DNA of 45,658 nucleotides from Enterovibrio norvegicus DSM 15893. Lineage in GTDB: Bacteria > Pseudomonadota > Gammaproteobacteria > Enterobacterales > Vibrionaceae. A model generated the notes under the pieces. It saw only the letters and a program-made list of their open reading frames with translations, searched no databases and was not told where the DNA came from. Positions 13,475-27,295 of this stretch are shown here, in pieces (within the stretch, counting starts at the first letter, position 1; every line of letters begins with the position of its first letter). The position numbers were made by a program, and so were the translations under genes. Where the stretch lies: positions 1 through 45,658 of the forward strand of contig NZ_FOWR01000001.1 in the NCBI RefSeq assembly GCF_900115495.1. The letters are read 5' to 3'.

Positions 13475-14827
13475 ATGACAACGCTCTTTAGCTTGATAGT
13501 GATCTTTGCTGTCGGCTACCTCATCGTAAAACGTTACAACCCACAAACGACACTGTTTATCGGCGGTATGATCCTCATGGTCGCCGGCATTTTCTTCGAA
13601 ACAGGCATGCCGTTACCTGAATCAGCATCAAGCGGCTCTGTTGCCCTCGATATATTCACCTTTGTAAAACAGACCACGAGTAAAACGGTTGCAGGTCTTG
13701 GCCTCATCATCATGGCCGTGGGTGGTTTCGCGCACTACATGGATCATATCGGGGCTTCCCGCGCGCTGGTGAGCATTGCGATTAAACCGCTGGAGTACTT
13801 CAAAGCACCCTATTTAGTGATGGCTTTGGGTTACTTGATAGGTCAATTCCTCAATATCTTCATACCGAGTGCATCTGGGCTTGGTTTGTTGCTGATGGTG
13901 ACTTTGTATCCAATCTTGGTTCGCTTGGGCGTGAGCAAAATGTCGGCGACCGCAGTGATTGCGACTGCGGCCTGTTTGGACTTGGGGCCAGCTTCAGGGA
14001 ACGCAAACCTTGCCGCTCGCACGGCAGACATGCCTGTGACGGAATACTTCATTTCTTATCAACTTCCCGTCGCGCTAATCACCATGGTCACGATTGCAAT
14101 ACTGCATTTGTTTGTTCAACGCTGGTTCGATAGACGAGAAGTGGAGAATAACGACACTGAAATCAGCGCAAGCGAAAGCGAGTGTAACCCTCCGATTTGG
14201 TATGCTTTGCTGCCCGTTATTCCTTTGGCGTTGTTGCTGATTTTCAGCCCGATGGCGATTGAGTCCGTGAAGATCGATGTGGTGACAGCAATGTTCGTCT
14301 CGATTGCAGTTGCGATGTTGTGTGAAACCTTCCGTCGTAAACCAAAATCTGTTTTCAGCGATATTTTGGTGTACTTCGATAGTATGGGTCGCCAGTTCGC
14401 TCGCGTTGTTACCCTTGTTGTTGCGGGTCAAACGTTCGCACACGGCCTGAAAACCACAGGTTTGTTGAACACCGTCATTGATGGTGCGTTGGCGGCAAGT
14501 GTTTCTCCTGCACTGATGGTTATCTTGATGGTACTGATCATTGCACTGGCTGCCATCATCATGGGATCGGGCAATGCGCCATTTTTCTCCTTTGCTGCTA
14601 TCGTGCCTGACATCGCGGGTAAAGTGGGAATTCCTGCCGTGGCGATGTTAATGCCGATGCAGCTTGCGTCTGGTATTGCGCGCTCAATGTCGCCGATTAC
14701 GGGTGCTGTTGTCGCGGTGGCGGGAGTGGCAGGTGTATCACCGTTTGAACTGGTAAAACGTACTGCCATTCCAATGGTGGGCGCGTTGATCGTCTCAACG
14801 GCAGCGTCACTTGTCATTGGCGTATAA
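13475..14827 (+). CDS. DcuC-type C4-dicarboxylate (or related) anion transporter
   Basis: 450 aa with about 12 hydrophobic segments. The sequence resembles the DcuC family, with LGYLIGQFLNIFIPSASGLGLLLM and NANLAARTADMPVTEYFISYQ, and the C-terminal GSGNAPFFSF and GIARSMSPITGA. DcuC proteins exchange or export succinate, fumarate and other C4 acids across the inner membrane, mainly during anaerobic growth. Start chosen at ATG 13475, eight bases after GGAG; an overlapping out-of-frame ATG lies at 13471. Preceded by a structured leader and followed by its own terminator, so it is monocistronic. The exact substrate is not certain. Confidence 0.85.
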   Translation: MTTLFSLIVIFAVGYLIVKRYNPQTTLFIGGMILMVAGIFFETGMPLPESASSGSVALDIFTFVKQTTSKTVAGLGLIIMAVGGFAHYMDHIGASRALVSIAIKPLEYFKAPYLVMALGYLIGQFLNIFIPSASGLGLLLMVTLYPILVRLGVSKMSATAVIATAACLDLGPASGNANLAARTADMPVTEYFISYQLPVALITMVTIAILHLFVQRWFDRREVENNDTEISASESECNPPIWYALLPVIPLALLLIFSPMAIESVKIDVVTAMFVSIAVAMLCETFRRKPKSVFSDILVYFDSMGRQFARVVTLVVAGQTFAHGLKTTGLLNTVIDGALAASVSPALMVILMVLIIALAAIIMGSGNAPFFSFAAIVPDIAGKVGIPAVAMLMPMQLASGIARSMSPITGAVVAVAGVAGVSPFELVKRTAIPMVGALIVSTAASLVIGV

Positions 14828-14861: not shown

Positions 14862-14890
14862 CCAGTGGTAGTTCACTGGTTTTTTTTTCG
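14862..14890 (+). terminator. Intrinsic terminator
   Basis: CCAGTG/CACTGG stem (14862-14867, 14874-14879) followed by a long T-tract. Confidence 0.85.
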
Positions 14891-15333: not shown

Positions 15334-17319
15334 ATGTTACGCGCAGTCAATGTCCTATCTGTACCTAAAATATTTTTAGACTCTCTTAGAGAAGCAGTGC
15401 TCGCTCTTCTTCCTTTTATGTTTTTGCGCTCCGTTTGGATATTGTTCAATATTATCAATGCGCATTTTTTGTTTATGGAACCCAGCATGGCTGGCTTGTT
15501 GTCACAGCTATTTGGGCTTGTTTTCCCTCTGTTGTTGACGATATCACTGGCTTATCACCTTGCGCTCGGTTTTTCTTATGAACGGATCCACGCCACTATT
15601 TTAACCTTGCTGTTGTTTCTCAAGTTCTCTGGGTACATTCAATTTTCAGAAGACGGTATCGCGCTTTCCAGTGACTTCGTTTTGCCACAAGCGATTGCTA
15701 TTCCCGTCTTTGTGAGTGTGTTTTATGTCGTTCTACGTCGTGTTTTCACTTTTACTATCGATCGAAAAGGGGTCTTGAATCGGTCTTTAAAACGGCATAT
15801 CGATGCGACGTTGCCGTACATCGTTATCTACCTCATTGCTTTGTTAATAGCGCCTATCATGCACCACTTTTCGCTTACGCCATTTGTCAGTTGGGTCGCT
15901 GAACTCTCTATGCAGTGGCAAAGTGTGTTGTGTAACTTCTTCATTCATTTGTTCTGGTTGGCGGGTATTCACGGGGCTGCCGCATACTACACCTTCTTTG
16001 ACGCCCAATTTGTCACAGACATTTACGTTTCGAATATTCCGTTCACTCAGTTTTTTGATTTGTTTGCCGTACCAGGCGGTGCGGGTGGTACTTGGTCTTT
16101 GATCTTGGCGTTACTTCTCTTTTCACGTAATCAACATGGCCGTGCTATCGCAAAAATATCGCTGCCTTTTGCACTGTTGAACATCAATGAAATTTTGCTG
16201 TTTGGGCTGCCTGTCATTTATAACCCCATGCTTGCCATCCCTTTCATTTTAGTGCCGCTTGTTAATCAATTCCTGGCATTCATGCTGTTTTCTGTGTTCC
16301 CCATTAGCGTTGTGAATCTCGACCTTAGTTGGATTACGCCAGTGTTTGCGAATGTGTGGTTGGCGACGGATGGCAATGCCATGGCGGTGTTGGTGCAAGG
16401 TTGTCTTATTGCAATTGGCGCACTGATATATCGGCCTTTCATTCGGCGTTTTGAGGTGGACAGCAATGAAATGCTCGGCGATAAGCTTGCGCGGCGGTTG
16501 CGTCTTAATGGCAGAGTGTTGGCACACGGCGACATGCTGCTGAACAAAGCACAGAACGAATTGGGCGAGCAAGTTGCAACGGTGAATGATCACATGAAGC
16601 AACTCTTAGAAGGGGATTTGAAAGTCTACTATCAACCGCAATACAACGTGAAAACGGGCGCGTTGTCAGGGCTAGAAGCCTTGTTGCGAATTGAAAAAGA
16701 TGGCGTGGTAAGTAGTCCCGCTTTTTTGAAAGACTTCATTTCTGCAGGTATGGCCAGTTCCATTGATGTGTGGGTCTTGGAGCAAGTGGCGTTGGATATG
16801 AAAGATTGGAAACAACGCGGCCTTCTCCATACCAAAGTCAGCATGAACCTGACGGTGGAATCGTTGTTGGATTCAGAGCATATCGACAATATTAAGGCGA
16901 TGTTAGGTGGCCTTCCCTTAGTGGTTGAAATTACCGAATCGGGCTACATCCAAAACCAAGTTGAAGCACAATCAGTGATCTTACAGCTTCAAAAGCAAGG
17001 TTTTCATGTGGCCATTGATGATTTTGGTTCCGGCTATGCCAGTCTCTCTATGTTGGCAAAACTGAAGGCTGATTTCGTTAAACTCGATCGTCAGTTCTTA
17101 GAAAACGCCTCATCACCTGAAGGTAAGATTTTGTATCACCACATAAGTAGCGCACTGAATGAAATGGGATACACCGTGATTGCAGAAGGCGTGGAAAGTG
17201 AAGAAGAAAGGGCGTTCATTCGAGAGTGTGATATTGAGTTTGTACAAGGGTATTTTTACCAGCCTGCGCTAAGTAAACAGCACATTGAAGAAGTGCTTGA
17301 AGGTGCGGGTAAGGGGTGA
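15334..17319 (+). CDS. PTS EIIC-like membrane domain fused to EAL c-di-GMP phosphodiesterase
   Basis: 661 aa. Residues 15-375 form a multi-span domain like the lactose/diacetylchitobiose PTS EIIC family: LFWLAGIHGAA (H213) and LLNINEILLFGLPVIYNPMLAIPF (E286) match the segments that hold the sugar-binding His and Glu in ChbC. EIIA, EIIB and any phosphorylation cysteine are absent. A short helical linker (376-425) leads to an EAL domain with every catalytic residue: E448 of EALLR, N505, E532, D562-D563 in IDDFGSGY, K583, E618 and Q638. The cytoplasmic part should therefore hydrolyse c-di-GMP to pGpG. The membrane part probably senses or transports a sugar. The start is preceded by GGGAGAGG; single gene. 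Confidence 0.9.
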   Translation: MLRAVNVLSVPKIFLDSLREAVLALLPFMFLRSVWILFNIINAHFLFMEPSMAGLLSQLFGLVFPLLLTISLAYHLALGFSYERIHATILTLLLFLKFSGYIQFSEDGIALSSDFVLPQAIAIPVFVSVFYVVLRRVFTFTIDRKGVLNRSLKRHIDATLPYIVIYLIALLIAPIMHHFSLTPFVSWVAELSMQWQSVLCNFFIHLFWLAGIHGAAAYYTFFDAQFVTDIYVSNIPFTQFFDLFAVPGGAGGTWSLILALLLFSRNQHGRAIAKISLPFALLNINEILLFGLPVIYNPMLAIPFILVPLVNQFLAFMLFSVFPISVVNLDLSWITPVFANVWLATDGNAMAVLVQGCLIAIGALIYRPFIRRFEVDSNEMLGDKLARRLRLNGRVLAHGDMLLNKAQNELGEQVATVNDHMKQLLEGDLKVYYQPQYNVKTGALSGLEALLRIEKDGVVSSPAFLKDFISAGMASSIDVWVLEQVALDMKDWKQRGLLHTKVSMNLTVESLLDSEHIDNIKAMLGGLPLVVEITESGYIQNQVEAQSVILQLQKQGFHVAIDDFGSGYASLSMLAKLKADFVKLDRQFLENASSPEGKILYHHISSALNEMGYTVIAEGVESEEERAFIRECDIEFVQGYFYQPALSKQHIEEVLEGAGKG

Positions 17320-17433: not shown

Positions 17434-18333
17434 TTAATGCTGGGGTAAATCTGGTTTCGGCCTTACTGTCACAAGACCCTCGATAATGGTGATCGCCAGA
17501 CCAAACCAAATCAGGCCAAAACTCACGGTTTTTATGCTATCAAACGCTTCGCCAAACAGAACCACTGCCAATACAAATTGCAGACTGGGTTCAATGTATT
17601 GCATGAGACCAACCATCGACATTTTGGCGTGTTTCACGGCTTCAGAGAAGAAGAACAAAGGCAAAAGCGTGATAGGCGCAGCCCCTAAATACAGCAAAAG
17701 TGTCGAGAAATCCCCAGATACCGCAACACTGGTGCCAGCGCCGATTTTGTAAGCCATATATATGGCGGCAATCGGGAACAGCACGATGCATTCAACGAAC
17801 AAAGACGTGATCGCATCATAATTCACGTAGCGTTTGCACCAACCATACATCGCAAAAAATATCGCCATTAGCATGGCTGCAATAGGTACTTCACCGTACT
17901 GGACAATCTGATAGCTCAAACCGAGTGCGCCAAAAACCACGGCGGCTTTTTGACCGAGTGTCAGTGTTTCTTTGAATGCGAGCACACCGAGAGCAATCAC
18001 TAAGAGTGGATTAATGAAAAAACCCAAACTTGCGTCTAACACGCGATCGTTGGTCATTGCCCATGTAAATGCACTCCATGAGATACACATCATCAAAGAA
18101 GCAATCGCAGAGAAGCTAAAAGAACGTTTGTCTGCAGTAAGCGTTTTCCAATTCGGCGTTTTGCCTTTCCGACACTGCAGCATTAACAAGAGGAAAGGCA
18201 CCGATGCAGCGATTCTTAGGGCAAGCAGCTCATCCATAGCGGCGTTAGGCATAAATTGGTAGTAAAGCGGCATGGCTCCCCATAAAAGAAACGCTATCGC
18301 TGCCATCACGTTACCAAAACGTGTCGGATTCAT
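17434..18333 (-). CDS. rarD: EamA/RarD family permease
   Basis: 299 aa with ten transmembrane helices in two EamA repeats. The N-terminal GNVMAAIAFLLWGAMPLYYQFMP and the later ISWSAFTWAMTNDRVLDASLGFFINPL fit the RarD group of drug/metabolite transporters (usually NWLxFIWAVNxxRxLEASLGYFINPL). The physiological substrate of RarD is unknown. It converges with the EIIC-EAL gene across 114 bp without a clear terminator. Confidence 0.88.
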   Translation of the reverse strand: MNPTRFGNVMAAIAFLLWGAMPLYYQFMPNAAMDELLALRIAASVPFLLLMLQCRKGKTPNWKTLTADKRSFSFSAIASLMMCISWSAFTWAMTNDRVLDASLGFFINPLLVIALGVLAFKETLTLGQKAAVVFGALGLSYQIVQYGEVPIAAMLMAIFFAMYGWCKRYVNYDAITSLFVECIVLFPIAAIYMAYKIGAGTSVAVSGDFSTLLLYLGAAPITLLPLFFFSEAVKHAKMSMVGLMQYIEPSLQFVLAVVLFGEAFDSIKTVSFGLIWFGLAITIIEGLVTVRPKPDLPQH

Positions 18334-19998: not shown

Positions 19999-20697
19999 TC
20001 ATGCGACGGTGCTTTCAAGCTGGTCGTAGATATCGGTCAACTCTGCCTGTGCCAGTAAATGCGCGATGGCTTCGCGAATGCGGTGAGGCGGCTTTTCACT
20101 GAAACACACGCCAAGTTGAAGGCCTTCCCCGCTGTTTTGTAAGTTAGCGATCTCACCGGAAAACGCGAGAGGCGAATCAAACAGCTTGTTGAACACCACA
20201 CGAATGGCTTGGCCTTTTTCGACGAACAAACTGCTGGTGACTCTAATGCCACAGCCTGTGAGCGAAATATCGGATAGCTTTGCAATCGTCATGCGATCAT
20301 CCAATTCAATCTGAACGATGCGAGAAATCGAAAAACGTGGATTCTTCCGCATTCTATGTATGCCAATAGATGGTGGGATCGCAATCGCGAGCATTTTCTC
20401 GGGGCGATGCATAACGCTCAGAATATGACTTTGGAATGCGAATATATCGCCAAACTTAGATGCTGATAATCCGCGAACCACGACATGAAACATCGAAGGA
20501 TCTTCCAGCAGTTTCCCCAGCTCGCGATCGGCAGGCATTTCAATCAATACATATTTCTTGTCACGATAACCAATCACACGCGACGCACCGCCAAAGGCCT
20601 TGGATTGGTCTTTGTATCGAAGCTCAAGCGTCAATGGCGTGCCAACAGGGAGCATGGGCAGGAATTGTGAAGGGGTCAGGGTATCGGTCGTTTTCAT
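19999..20697 (-). CDS. PilZ-domain c-di-GMP effector with YcgR-like N-terminal domain
   Basis: 232 aa. The N-terminal 100 residues form a YcgR/PilZN-like domain; the C-terminal half is a PilZ domain. The full c-di-GMP motif is present: R117-x-x-x-R121 (RKNPR) and D143-x-S-x-x-G148 (DISLTG). It should therefore bind c-di-GMP, as YcgR and Vibrio PlzD-type proteins do to slow swimming. Its partner is unknown. No flagellar gene is nearby. The 119-bp palindromic segment 20713-20831 begins 16 bases upstream of the start codon and includes the likely promoter. Confidence 0.9.
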   Translation of the reverse strand: MKTTDTLTPSQFLPMLPVGTPLTLELRYKDQSKAFGGASRVIGYRDKKYVLIEMPADRELGKLLEDPSMFHVVVRGLSASKFGDIFAFQSHILSVMHRPEKMLAIAIPPSIGIHRMRKNPRFSISRIVQIELDDRMTIAKLSDISLTGCGIRVTSSLFVEKGQAIRVVFNKLFDSPLAFSGEIANLQNSGEGLQLGVCFSEKPPHRIREAIAHLLAQAELTDIYDQLESTVA

Positions 20698-23650: not shown

Positions 23651-24304
23651 ATGGAAAACGATAAAAATAATGACCTCGGCACGACACCTAAGAAGGTGTT
23701 GGTGCTATTTGCACATCCCTCGCTGCGCCGCTCTGAAGTAAATGCACCTTTATTTAAGGTGGCTCAACAAGCAGAGGGTGTCACCGCTGTCGATCTTTAT
23801 GCAGAATACCCGACGTTACACATTGATATTGATCGCGAGCAGAAGCGTTTGTTGGCGAACGATATCGTGATCTTCCAATTTCCCCTCTACTGGTATTCGA
23901 CACCTTCTATTTTGAAAGAGTGGCAGGATTTGGTACTGGAATATGGGTTTGCGTATGGCTCTCAAGGAACCGCGCTTCACGGCAAAACCTTTATGTGCGC
24001 GATTTCTGCCGGTGGTAAAGAAGAGTTTTATAAAGCTGATGGGTATAACCACTTTAAAATTCGTGAGCTTTTGCATCCGCTAGAACAGATGTCGAATCTC
24101 GTGGGTATGCGTTATATGGCACCGTTTTCTTTATTCGGGTCTCGCACTGCGCTAGAGGATGGAAAAGTTGCCAGCCATACCGAAGGCTATCGCCAGCTGT
24201 TATCGGCCTTAGTGAGTGACACGCTGGATCTTGATGTTGTCGCGAAACGTGAAAAAGTGACGGCAGCCAACCTCAGCACCATGATGAAAGGAGCGACATC
24301 ATGA
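23651..24304 (+). CDS. NAD(P)H-dependent flavodoxin-like oxidoreductase, Kef ancillary (KefG/KefF-like)
   Basis: 217 aa. Flavodoxin_2 fold: KVLVLFAHPSLRRSEVNAPL (FMN phosphate loop), then DIVIFQFPLYWYSTPSILKEWQDLVLEYGFAYG, a hallmark of the KefF/KefG/MdaB group, and TFMCAISAGGKEEFY. In E. coli such proteins are quinone reductases that bind and activate KefB or KefC. Its stop overlaps the start of the Kef-type antiporter (ATGA), implying translational coupling and partnership. It is about 30 residues longer than KefG. Ribosome site AGGA. Confidence 0.9.
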   Translation: MENDKNNDLGTTPKKVLVLFAHPSLRRSEVNAPLFKVAQQAEGVTAVDLYAEYPTLHIDIDREQKRLLANDIVIFQFPLYWYSTPSILKEWQDLVLEYGFAYGSQGTALHGKTFMCAISAGGKEEFYKADGYNHFKIRELLHPLEQMSNLVGMRYMAPFSLFGSRTALEDGKVASHTEGYRQLLSALVSDTLDLDVVAKREKVTAANLSTMMKGATS

Positions 24305-26289
24305 CGGGTATTTTTCTGCAAGCGTTCATCTATTTGGTCGCAGCTGTTATCGCAGTACCAATCGCAAAACGCTTGGGCTTAGGCTCGGTACTGGGCTATC
24401 TCATCGCAGGCGTGGTGATTGGCCCTGTTGTGGGTCTTGTGGGGGATGAAACCACCACCATTCAGCATTTCGCAGAATTCGGTGTGGTGATGATGCTGTT
24501 TTTGGTCGGCTTGGAGCTTGAACCAAAAATGCTGTGGGCGATGCGTAATCGCTTAATGGGATTGGGTGGCCTGCAAGTCGGTTTAACGACGGTAGCGGTC
24601 ATGGCCATTGCGCTTAGCTTTGGTTTACAGTGGAGTATCTCTCTGGCAATTGGTTTGATCTTCGCGCTGTCTTCAACAGCGATTGTCCTTCAAACGTTTA
24701 ATGAGAAAGGGCTGACCAAGACAGAAGGCGGACGCAATGCGTTTTCTGTTCTCTTGTTCCAAGATATTGCCGTGATCCCAATGCTGGCGTTTATACCGCT
24801 ACTCGCGCTGCCTGAGCTGGTGGCTGCGGCGCAAACGGCAGCAGCAAACGCAGCAGAACACCATGAAGAAATGAGTTTGGTTGCGGGCCTACCGGGTTGG
24901 GCGATGGGCTTAGTGATCACAGGCACCATTGCGGGGGTTGTGGTCGGTGGACATTTCTTGAGCCTCCCATTGTTCCGCTTTGTAGCAAGCTCCGGCCTTC
25001 GGGAAATATTCACGGCAACCGCATTGATGCTGGTCATTGGCATCGCGGCTTTAATGAGCCTTGTGGGGTTGTCGCCAGCTCTAGGTACATTCCTTGCGGG
25101 TGTTATCTTGGCGAACAGCGAATTCCGTCATGAATTGGAATCTAACATCGAGCCGTTTAAAGGGCTGTTGCTAGGGCTCTTCTTCATCACGGTAGGTGCG
25201 GGCATCAACTTTGGTATTTTGTTCGAAGATTTCTTCTTGATCATTGGCCTCACCATTGGGTTGATGGTGTTGAAAGCCCTCATTTTGTTGCTACTGAGCT
25301 TTATTTTCAAAATCAAAGGGAGCAGCCGTTGGTTGTTTGCATTGAGCCTTGCGCAAGCGGGTGAGTTTGGTTTTGTTCTTTTGAGCTTCACTACACAAAA
25401 CCATGTGTTGCCGATGGACATCGCTCAGTTGCTATCGCTGGTGGTCGCAATCTCTATGTTCCTAACACCTGGGTTGTTCATCTTGTATGACAAAGTCATC
25501 TTGCCACGCTATGAAAAAGCGTCGAATAATCGGGAAGCGGATGAAATTGACGAGCAAGGCACTGCCATCATTGCAGGTGTCGGTCGTTTCGGTCAGGTGG
25601 TTAACCGCTTGCTGACGGCAAATGGCGTAAAAACGGTTGTTCTTGATTACGAAGCCACCCAAGTGGAAAACCTTCGTCAAATTAACATTAAGAGCTTCTT
25701 CGGTGATGCGACACGTCCTGATCTGCTGCACACCGCGGGCATTGAAGAAGCGTCGTTGTTGGTGGTGTCTATGGATAATCAAGAAACCACGACCGAGCTG
25801 GTGAGATATGTGAAGCATACGTATCCACATGTGAAGATCATTGCGCGCGCGTTTGACCGTGGGCATTCCTACATGTTGAGAGCGGCGGGGGCAGATCATG
25901 TCGAGAAGGAAACATTCCACTCCGCGATTGAAGTCGGTGCAACGTCACTGCGCTGCTTGGGTGTGCACCCGTTTTTGGTCGAGCAGCAAAAAGCCAAGTA
26001 CCTTCGCTTAGAAAATAGCAGCTCTGAAATGTTGTATGAAACTTGGATGGGCGGCGAAGAAACAGAATCGTACGATAACCACTATCAACATTTGTTTATC
26101 CAATTGGAAGAAACCATTCGTGATGCCATGGATGAAGATCGTATGGATCGACACGGGTTGACGGAACGTGAGTGGACGCCACCGCCGAAAGATTACCTTG
26201 ATGATTTTACCGATCACCCATTGGACAAAGTGATAGATGATGCCGTGGATGATGAGGATGATATTTCCGGTAGTGAGAAGCCAGCATAA
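24301..26289 (+). CDS. CPA2 K+/H+ antiporter with RCK domain (KefB/KefC-like)
   Basis: 662 aa. Residues 1-390 form a Na+/H+ exchanger-like membrane domain (SVLGYLIAGVVIGP, SSTAIVLQ, FQDIAVIP, SPALGTFLAGVILANSEFRHELESNIEPFKGLLLGLFF). The HELESNIEPF loop is the Kef regulatory loop. Residues about 415-540 are a Rossmann RCK_N domain (IIAGVGRFGQVVNRLL). In E. coli, glutathione adducts open KefB/C, releasing K+ and acidifying the cytoplasm to protect against electrophiles such as methylglyoxal. The C-terminus (about 600-662) is acidic and longer than in E. coli KefB (601 aa). Starts inside the KefG-like stop and overlaps the GNAT gene by one base. Confidence 0.92.
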   Translation: MTGIFLQAFIYLVAAVIAVPIAKRLGLGSVLGYLIAGVVIGPVVGLVGDETTTIQHFAEFGVVMMLFLVGLELEPKMLWAMRNRLMGLGGLQVGLTTVAVMAIALSFGLQWSISLAIGLIFALSSTAIVLQTFNEKGLTKTEGGRNAFSVLLFQDIAVIPMLAFIPLLALPELVAAAQTAAANAAEHHEEMSLVAGLPGWAMGLVITGTIAGVVVGGHFLSLPLFRFVASSGLREIFTATALMLVIGIAALMSLVGLSPALGTFLAGVILANSEFRHELESNIEPFKGLLLGLFFITVGAGINFGILFEDFFLIIGLTIGLMVLKALILLLLSFIFKIKGSSRWLFALSLAQAGEFGFVLLSFTTQNHVLPMDIAQLLSLVVAISMFLTPGLFILYDKVILPRYEKASNNREADEIDEQGTAIIAGVGRFGQVVNRLLTANGVKTVVLDYEATQVENLRQINIKSFFGDATRPDLLHTAGIEEASLLVVSMDNQETTTELVRYVKHTYPHVKIIARAFDRGHSYMLRAAGADHVEKETFHSAIEVGATSLRCLGVHPFLVEQQKAKYLRLENSSSEMLYETWMGGEETESYDNHYQHLFIQLEETIRDAMDEDRMDRHGLTEREWTPPPKDYLDDFTDHPLDKVIDDAVDDEDDISGSEKPA

Positions 26290-26768
26290 TGGAGCTTGTG
26301 CCCTTCAGTGAAAATGATGCGGCGCAGCTTTGCGCTTGGATCCCTGATGCCAAGGCAAATTTTCAGTGGGGTGGGCCAGCGTTTTCTTTCCCACTGACGC
26401 CTGCTCAGATCTGTACGCACATTGCGCGTGAAGAAGTAGCAGCGTATTTGGTAAAGCATCATCAAGAAGCGGTGGGCTACATCGAGCTGTTTCGTGTGTC
26501 GGACAATGAGTACCGTTTGTGTCGTGTGCTCATTGCTTCACCGACGCAAAGAGGTAAAGGTTTAGGGCACCAATTGGTTGCGCTGGCGTTGGAAAAAGCG
26601 CGGGTGATTCCGAACGTGTATAAAGTCTCCTTGGCGGTGTTTGCGCATAATACAGCGGCGATTTCCTGCTATTCCTCTTTGGGGTTTGTCGTATTGCCTG
26701 ATCACACCAAGACACGTTTCTTTAACGGAGAATCGTGGACGTTACTCCGTATGGAACGTTGGCTGTAG
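26289..26768 (+). CDS. GNAT family N-acetyltransferase
   Basis: 159 aa. GNAT fold with acetyl-CoA loop SPTQRGKGLGHQLVALALEKA (Q/RxxGxG/A motif) and AVFAHNTAAISCYSSLGFV, the typical RimI-like end motif. The start overlaps the Kef stop (TAATG), so it is the last gene of the KefG-Kef operon. It may acetylate a small molecule or protein. A role in detoxifying electrophile adducts would fit the operon but is only inferred. Confidence 0.88.
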   Translation: MELVPFSENDAAQLCAWIPDAKANFQWGGPAFSFPLTPAQICTHIAREEVAAYLVKHHQEAVGYIELFRVSDNEYRLCRVLIASPTQRGKGLGHQLVALALEKARVIPNVYKVSLAVFAHNTAAISCYSSLGFVVLPDHTKTRFFNGESWTLLRMERWL

Positions 26769-26958: not shown

Positions 26959-26974
26959 TGTGATTTAAATCACA
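26959..26974 (+). promoter_or_regulatory. CRP (cAMP receptor protein) binding site of gbpA
   Basis: TGTGATTTAAATCACA is a perfect TGTGA-N6-TCACA palindrome, embedded in flanks close to the full CRP consensus. A possible -10 (TATGCA, 26998-27003) lies about 31 bp from its centre, which would place CRP near -42 as a class II activator. The site is direct; the promoter position is inferred. Confidence 0.8.
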
Positions 26975-27054
26975 TTTATGGATCTGTGTGCTGTTTGTAT
27001 GCAGTAAATGTTTGTCTCGACGCGTTTTCTGAATACTCTGGCGACCTTTCCACA

Positions 27055-27151
27055 ATCATCGGCAAACTGCTTGAAAAAGCAGGACGCAAAGCTTCCGGTC
27101 TAAGGGCAATTACCCAATAAGAGGTAACAGCTTACGACAGCGGGGCCGCCA
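27055..27151 (+). promoter_or_regulatory. Cyclic di-GMP-I riboswitch (GEMM) upstream of gbpA
   Basis: GGCAAAC, then stem CTGCTT/AAGCAG closed by a GAAA tetraloop, then GGACGCAAAGC and TTCCGGTCTAA, a second arm (GGGCAATTACCC onward), and a closing AGCGGGGCC. These are the conserved blocks of the GEMM-I aptamer (tetraloop, GACGCAAAGCC, CCGGnCUAA receptor, AGCGGGG). CGGC (27060-27063) can pair with GCCG (27145-27148) as a short P1. In V. cholerae the Vc1 riboswitch precedes gbpA, the same context. A hairpin GGTTC/GAACC follows at 27159-27173, and about 145 bases separate the aptamer from the start codon; no intrinsic terminator is obvious, so control may be translational. Confidence 0.92.
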
Positions 27152-27295
27152 TTTTCTGGGTTCACGAAGAACCTGCTCGTTAAGACGCGTTTTCGTAGAA
27201 AGCGATGTTCCACAACACGAGTCTCCGAGAAAATGTTCCGTTGCGACATTTGTCAGTGCTGTGGGTGAATTTATAAACACTCAGGAAGTACAAAC

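Follow-up and report, generated by a model that had tools for sequence, protein, structure and literature searches.

The DNA analysed here, a window of 45,658 nucleotides from the marine bacterium Enterovibrio norvegicus DSM 15893, carries a gene in which a sugar-permease-like membrane domain (EIIC) of the phosphotransferase system (PTS) is joined to an EAL domain, the domain of c-di-GMP phosphodiesterases. This raises the question of what a permease domain does on such an enzyme, and in particular whether it still transports or has taken up another role. The gene and its parts are as follows.

15334..17319, + strand: EIIC-EAL fusion protein, 661 aa, a single open reading frame with an ATG start
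15334..16458, + strand: EIIC-like membrane domain, aa 1-375, divergent lactose/cellobiose/chitobiose family (PF02378, TIGR00410)
15970..15972, + strand: codon of H213, equivalent to H250 of 3qnq in the alignment
16189..16191, + strand: codon of E286, in the motif NINE, equivalent to E334 of 3qnq in the alignment
16459..16596, + strand: EIIC-to-EAL linker, aa 376-421
16597..17265, + strand: EAL domain, aa 422-644, with the checked catalytic residues present (Pfam)

In the Pfam scan both domains score above the gathering cut-off, first PTS_EIIC at aa 48-308 (E 1.5e-11, 44.4 bits against a cut-off of 30.7) and then EAL at aa 422-644 (E 2.8e-53). The NCBIfam family TIGR00410 (lactose/cellobiose IIC) covers aa 14-374 with an E-value of 7.9e-32, and its score of 110.8 bits is less than half of the family cut-off of 236 bits. 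Profile-profile comparison also gives homology to this family over the whole EIIC. Among solved structures the EIIC part has a single credible match, 3qnq, the ChbC of Bacillus cereus (E 1.3e-23); the other row, at E 0.72, is unrelated. In the pairwise alignment, with the numbering rechecked, H213 and E286 correspond to H250 and E334 of 3qnq, which we take to be part of the sugar site. The second half of ChbC presumably binds the substrate, while the first half forms the dimer scaffold. A preliminary description of this DNA had proposed a ChbC/lactose-type EIIC that keeps both residues and has neither EIIA nor EIIB, and all of this is borne out; the Pfam and NCBIfam scans of the 661 residues found no EIIA or EIIB domain. 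According to a hydropathy scan, hydrophobic segments extend up to about residue 371, followed by the polar linker and finally the EAL domain. A structure model built from two sequences has a mean pLDDT of 37.3, too low to be informative about the fold.

The EAL domain had been described as intact, and the alignment agrees with this. The target has the metal- and substrate-binding residues of catalytic EAL phosphodiesterases: E448, N505, E532, E535, D562, D563, K583, E618 and Q638, whose catalytic role we assume from RocR-type EAL enzymes. All nine are identical in 53 of 53 full-length rows, which all come from the host's family, include the target itself and contain one species' gene twice. 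Compared with the homolog of Enterovibrio baiacu, dN/dS is 0.078 for the EIIC, 0.036 for the linker and 0.041 for the EAL domain, at a dS of about 1.1. Judged by these ratios, purifying selection acts on the EIIC, the linker and the EAL domain alike.

The target is one of five EIIC-EAL paralogs in the host genome. The other four are full-length, with 26-31% identity in the alignment. At least one match is present in 15 of the 18 genomes of the genus (E <= 1e-40) and in 137 of the 329 genomes of the host's family (E <= 1e-45, scoring the best three candidates per genome). The latter threshold should pick the fusion, as the EAL-only matches of the host reach 2e-29 at best; the architecture itself is confirmed just in those family members that were read out. 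Close homologs (39-86% identity) occur in six Enterovibrio genomes, the host among them, and in seven further genomes of the family, in two of these as split copies. The homolog of E. baiacu, at 86% identity, is the sole named relative from the genome contigs. In a sample of the phylum 17 of 398 genomes match at E <= 1e-40, all 17 in the host's class. A profile search at the level of the order matched 287 of 394 genomes, with many of the printed matches spanning the EAL end alone, which makes this figure unsuitable as a count of fusions.

Nine plasmid records match as well, including Pseudoalteromonas, Tritonibacter (three), Clostridioides difficile and Acetoanaerobium. Both domains were confirmed by Pfam in the three plasmid relatives that were scanned, from Clostridioides, Pseudoalteromonas and Tritonibacter, all annotated merely as "EAL domain-containing protein". 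The match in a Roseburia plasmid record is confined to the EAL part, and the matches in Vibrio and Photobacterium plasmid records span 70% and 64% of the query, respectively. In viral contigs, a profile of the whole family retained 80 of 140 relatives, with matches at the EAL end, the longest extending back to residue 338; a profile of the EIIC only found no relatives there. Several unusual copies were seen. In L192 and L214 two EIIC-EAL genes are adjacent, suggesting tandem duplication. A 49% relative at G036:C4:63244-64470, in an open frame of 426 aa, matches residues 15-424 (EIIC and linker) with one stop within the matched part; it may be an EIIC from which the EAL has been lost. Two homologs of the target clade (L036/L087 and L042/L088) each appear as two overlapping open reading frames, by frameshift, assembly error or decay.

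Can the host still use such a permease for uptake? The cognate EIIA and EIIB that accompany TIGR00410 transporters were not found in its genome. The lactose-type EIIA profile PF02255 has no match in the host, while in a control it was positive in 3 of 14 genomes (E. coli, B. subtilis, L. lactis). The EIIB profile PF02302 has eight matches in seven host proteins; six were scanned, and all of them exceed the cut-off of the fructose IIB model TIGR00829; the seventh, judged by eye, also looks like a fructose EIIB. The lacE-family matches in the host are exactly the five EIIC-EAL proteins, none above the cut-off, and a stand-alone EIIC of the lactose/cellobiose/chitobiose family was not found in the genome. 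This repertoire, in which neither a stand-alone EIIC of that family nor a lactose-type EIIA was detected and every EIIB is fructose-type or fructose-like, makes it unlikely that the genome encodes a classical lactose-type PTS. The preliminary description had offered either uptake or sensing as the process coupled to c-di-GMP breakdown. Sensing is plausible, but uptake through a lactose-type PTS is judged unlikely in the host given that neither lactose-type EIIA nor EIIB was found.

Within the genus, 13 of the 15 genomes with an EIIC-EAL have no detected EIIA. Among the 329 genomes of the family, 79 have both EIIC-EAL and EIIA, 58 only EIIC-EAL, 67 only EIIA and 125 neither. We considered whether the two exclude each other across the family and rejected this, as they co-occur more often than expected by chance (odds ratio 2.5, p 4.9e-5, uncorrected for kinship). 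The EIIC-EAL family neither needs nor avoids an EIIA, and the 79 genomes with both mean that an EIIA partner in trans is possible in many species.

To compare the fused domains with transporters, we used 12 other genomes that were selected for having both EIIA and EIIC-EAL. Here, 23 matches exceed the TIGR00410 cut-off of 236, with scores of 281-454 bits, while 25 matches below it score 93-178 and lie in EIIC-EAL-type frames or fragments. The two groups are clearly homologous: a profile of ten fused EIICs aligns nearly end to end with a profile built from four stand-alone ones (probability 100, E 1.3e-47). A tree was made from 68 fused and 21 stand-alone sequences, and a single branch in it separates the groups (99/99, in 100% of 200 bootstrap trees). 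The tree is midpoint-rooted, so that each group is one side of a branch and no rooted clade, and it has several long branches. Two fused rows (L256, L260) and three stand-alone ones are left out of it; the stand-alone rows use 20 of the 23 above-cut-off matches, two having no locus and L280 no suitable open reading frame.

At 53 positions the residue is conserved in at least 19 of the 21 stand-alone EIICs, in a row set that includes near-copies. The 31 positions of the C-terminal half (from residue 245 of 3qnq onward, with H250 and E334) are kept in the fused EIICs with a mean of 0.66, compared with 0.28 for the 22 positions of the N-terminal half (Mann-Whitney p 2.6e-4). The target itself retains 20 of 31 against 7 of 22 (Fisher p 0.027). 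Four N-terminal positions found in all 21 stand-alone EIICs, E158, P173, F184 and P223 in 3qnq numbering, are kept in at most 10% of the fused ones. E286, on the other hand, is identical in all 68 fused and all 21 stand-alone EIICs aligned, and together with N283, G248, G249, G251, P293, N297, P303 and P336 it is invariant among the fused ones. The position of H213 is H in 41 of the 68 fused EIICs and N in 27. Loss of this histidine was rejected as a mark of lost transport, as N is also found in 2 of the 21 stand-alone EIICs, both from Enterovibrio. There is good sequence evidence that the permease half has left ordinary transport, and it may have a sensor role.

Our favoured reading, which we hold with moderate confidence, is that the EIIC-EAL protein is a membrane receptor derived from a former PTS permease and controlling c-di-GMP breakdown. 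In the mechanism that we infer, the EIIC no longer supplies a phosphorylating transport system but probably still binds a ligand resembling a sugar, with a beta-linked disaccharide or something related as the likeliest candidate. According to the alignment, the predicted pocket would have the GIHG, GGxG and NxNE motifs at its core. Binding of the ligand, or movement permitted by it, would be relayed through the short cytoplasmic linker to the EAL domain. There it would shift the dimer state and alter, in one direction or the other, the rate of cleavage of c-di-GMP to pGpG.

The best surviving alternative, which we still regard as unlikely, is that the EIIC receives a phosphorylation status. 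PTS proteins of EIIB or EIIA type would dock to it in trans, and the EAL activity would depend on whether these are phosphorylated and not on a ligand. This is how EIIA-Glc acts on PdeS of Vibrio cholerae: in the accessible portion of PMC8846402, PTS_EIIC is termed a phosphoreceiver domain and phosphorylation of EIIA-Glc is described as activating the phosphodiesterase PdeS. The host does have fructose-type PTS proteins, and a lactose-type EIIA is present in 79 of the 137 EIIC-EAL genomes of the family. However, cognate phosphoryl donors, lactose-type EIIA or EIIB, were not found in the host, which makes this explanation less likely there. The pattern of conservation also speaks against it, with the best-kept positions in the half that holds H250 and E334, and the four N-terminal residues named above mostly lost. 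Moreover, EIIC domains themselves are not known to be phosphorylated in the classical PTS.

Slightly less probable again is that the EIIC is a mere membrane anchor and dimerizer, with an EAL domain that is constitutive or regulated by expression. Many EAL proteins carry membrane domains of no known ligand, and the variable H213 position, with N in 27 of 68, fits this as well. A bare anchor would, however, hardly need nine residues invariant in 68 of 68 fused proteins, or an EIIC with a dN/dS as low as that found here. It is improbable that the EIIC is still a transporter, either a facilitator without phosphorylation or one served by an EIIB of another class, with the EAL reporting flux: the core with H213 and E286 is retained and some EIICs leak sugar through facilitated diffusion, but the genome has no detected lactose-type EIIB or EIIA, many transporter-conserved positions of the N-terminal half are lost, and the EIIC-EAL matches stay under the curated TIGR00410 cut-off in the host and in the 12 other genomes.

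The reading of the protein as a receptor can be widened. A class of PTS permeases, in Proteobacteria and Clostridia, may have quit transport and become direct sugar receptors on c-di-GMP phosphodiesterases, independent of phosphoryl flow, also where import by a lactose-type PTS is impossible, with paralogs tuned to different ligands. We put this forward as a tentative proposal, with somewhat less confidence than the reading of the single protein.

Which sugar might be sensed? A beta-linked disaccharide would be the default choice, taken from homology alone. The preliminary description had gone further, to diacetylchitobiose and to a chitin-binding gene in the window, gbpA. The features that bear on this are listed here.

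13475..14827, + strand: DcuC-type C4-dicarboxylate carrier, upstream neighbour, about 500 bp before the EIIC-EAL gene (Pfam, NCBIfam)
14862-14879: terminator-like hairpin between the dcuC-type and EIIC-EAL genes (terminator-like matches are about as frequent in shuffles)
17434..18333, - strand: drug/metabolite-transporter-like membrane protein, convergent downstream neighbour, named by eye from the sequence
19999-20697, - strand: PilZ protein, YcgR-like
27051-27153, + strand: c-di-GMP-I riboswitch upstream of gbpA, 65.8 bits
27296-28867: gbpA

The PilZ effector and the c-di-GMP riboswitch on gbpA, both named before, are real. The EIIC-EAL gene probably stands alone, as there is a gap of about 500 bp with the hairpin upstream and a convergent gene downstream. 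Its further neighbours include a hydrolase among others, and no CRP-like site was found between the dcuC-type and EIIC-EAL genes, allowing up to two mismatches. Of the stretches fetched, only that of E. baiacu has the same order of genes near the target, and it ends before gbpA. Four of the five other Enterovibrio homologs (61-86% identity) are located elsewhere, adjoining and downstream of an MCP-type cluster gene. The loci are L078:7673-9307, L079, L080 and L081, and a single-Cache sensor domain was found in the scanned copy, that of L078. In flanks of about 8-10 kb around 12 target-clade loci neither a GH18 nor a GbpA-like gene was found, and in the window gbpA lies about 10 kb from the EIIC-EAL gene. 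The specific link of the target gene to diacetylchitobiose or gbpA is accordingly not upheld: the gbpA link is weak, and the neighbourhood of the target clade holds no sugar clue. Chitobiose itself seems a doubtful ligand to us.

The gbpA region has some features of its own. A perfect CRP-type palindrome, TGTGATTTAAATCACA, lies at 26959-26974 on the + strand, 76 bases before the riboswitch. It is the sole exact match; with two mismatches allowed there are 14 in the window against a shuffle mean of 27. According to the accessible part of PMC4545359, V. cholerae gbpA is controlled by CRP and c-di-GMP, and its induction at low c-di-GMP does not depend on the Vc1 riboswitch; the position of TGTGATTTAAATCACA fits such dual control by cAMP and c-di-GMP. 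Further upstream, at 23651-26768 on the + strand, a KefF/KefG-like gene, a KefC/KefB-like gene and a GNAT acetyltransferase gene follow each other, perhaps as one operon.

For two of the sister paralogs the neighbourhood is more informative. In the host, two of the five EIIC-EAL paralogs have a GH18 gene at a distance of about 1.4-1.5 kb.

L076:11996-14338 and L077:4913-7477: GH18 chitinase genes near paralogs, on host contigs C6 and C81

A rough binomial estimate, made post hoc, gives p 0.0025 to 0.0032 for this proximity. With loci assigned to paralog groups by eye, the L004-like paralog has the same chitinase at 9 of 13 loci (9 of 10 within the genus, 0 of 3 outside), and the L005-like paralog has a chitinase at 7 of 7, all within the genus. 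The synteny is confined to one genus and therefore amounts to about two events, not sixteen. At the other 37 fetched loci (12 of the target clade, two mixed sets of 5 and 13 drawn mainly from one other genus, 3 L003-like and 4 L002-like) and at the two remaining host paralogs no chitinase was found, apart from one weak match (280 aa, 27%). As a control, 1 of 20 arbitrary stretches had a weak chitinase match, of 106 aa. The adjacency is suggestive, hinting at a chitin link for those two paralogs. Near another EIIC-EAL paralog we observed an open reading frame that combines an RpiR-type HTH with a DcuC-like C-terminal piece (L075:3111-3854) and a gene for a response regulator with an EAL domain (L075:6972-8192).

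To our knowledge, the signal sensed by most c-di-GMP enzymes is not known. If the EIIC is a direct sugar receptor, it would give a widespread family a defined class of ligands, provide an example of a transporter turned receptor, and call for a revision of the view that EIIC acts as a phosphoreceiver in such proteins. With its five EIIC-EALs and no lactose-type PTS detected, the Enterovibrio genome offers a clean test ground for this. The family probably links the detection of sugars to whether cells attach or swim.

The architecture of the target gene is already catalogued. In the accessible portion of PMC8846402, a Pfam census lists PTS_EIIC among the domains found with GGDEF, EAL and/or HD, where it is rare; the target is of the same kind, a PTS_EIIC joined to a c-di-GMP domain. 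The census counts these combinations together, and it is EIIC that is termed a phosphoreceiver there; the lack of detected lactose-type phosphoryl donors in the host points instead to sensing of a ligand. In the open-licence literature, with subscription journals outside this scope, no paper was recognised as reporting experiments on an EIIC-EAL protein, and the accessible parts of PMC11878068, PMC10513181, PMC10100716, PMC6123363, PMC9371280 and PMC7526171 do not describe the fusion.

Compared with ChbC (3qnq) and the TIGR00410 family, the target shares homology over the whole EIIC and the equivalents of H250 and E334, but it scores less than half of the cut-off, its N-terminal half is eroded, its EIIA and EIIB partners were not found, and it has an EAL domain attached. 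A transporter fold as the sensory input of a signalling enzyme is also seen in the CbrA-type histidine kinases, which differ from the target in using the sodium/solute symporter family and a kinase output. A further related system is PdeS with EIIA-Glc in V. cholerae, where, as described in the accessible portion of PMC8846402, a PTS component likewise governs a c-di-GMP phosphodiesterase according to the sugar supply. There, a separate EIIA acts through phosphorylation, while in the target an EIIC-type membrane domain is built into the enzyme itself.
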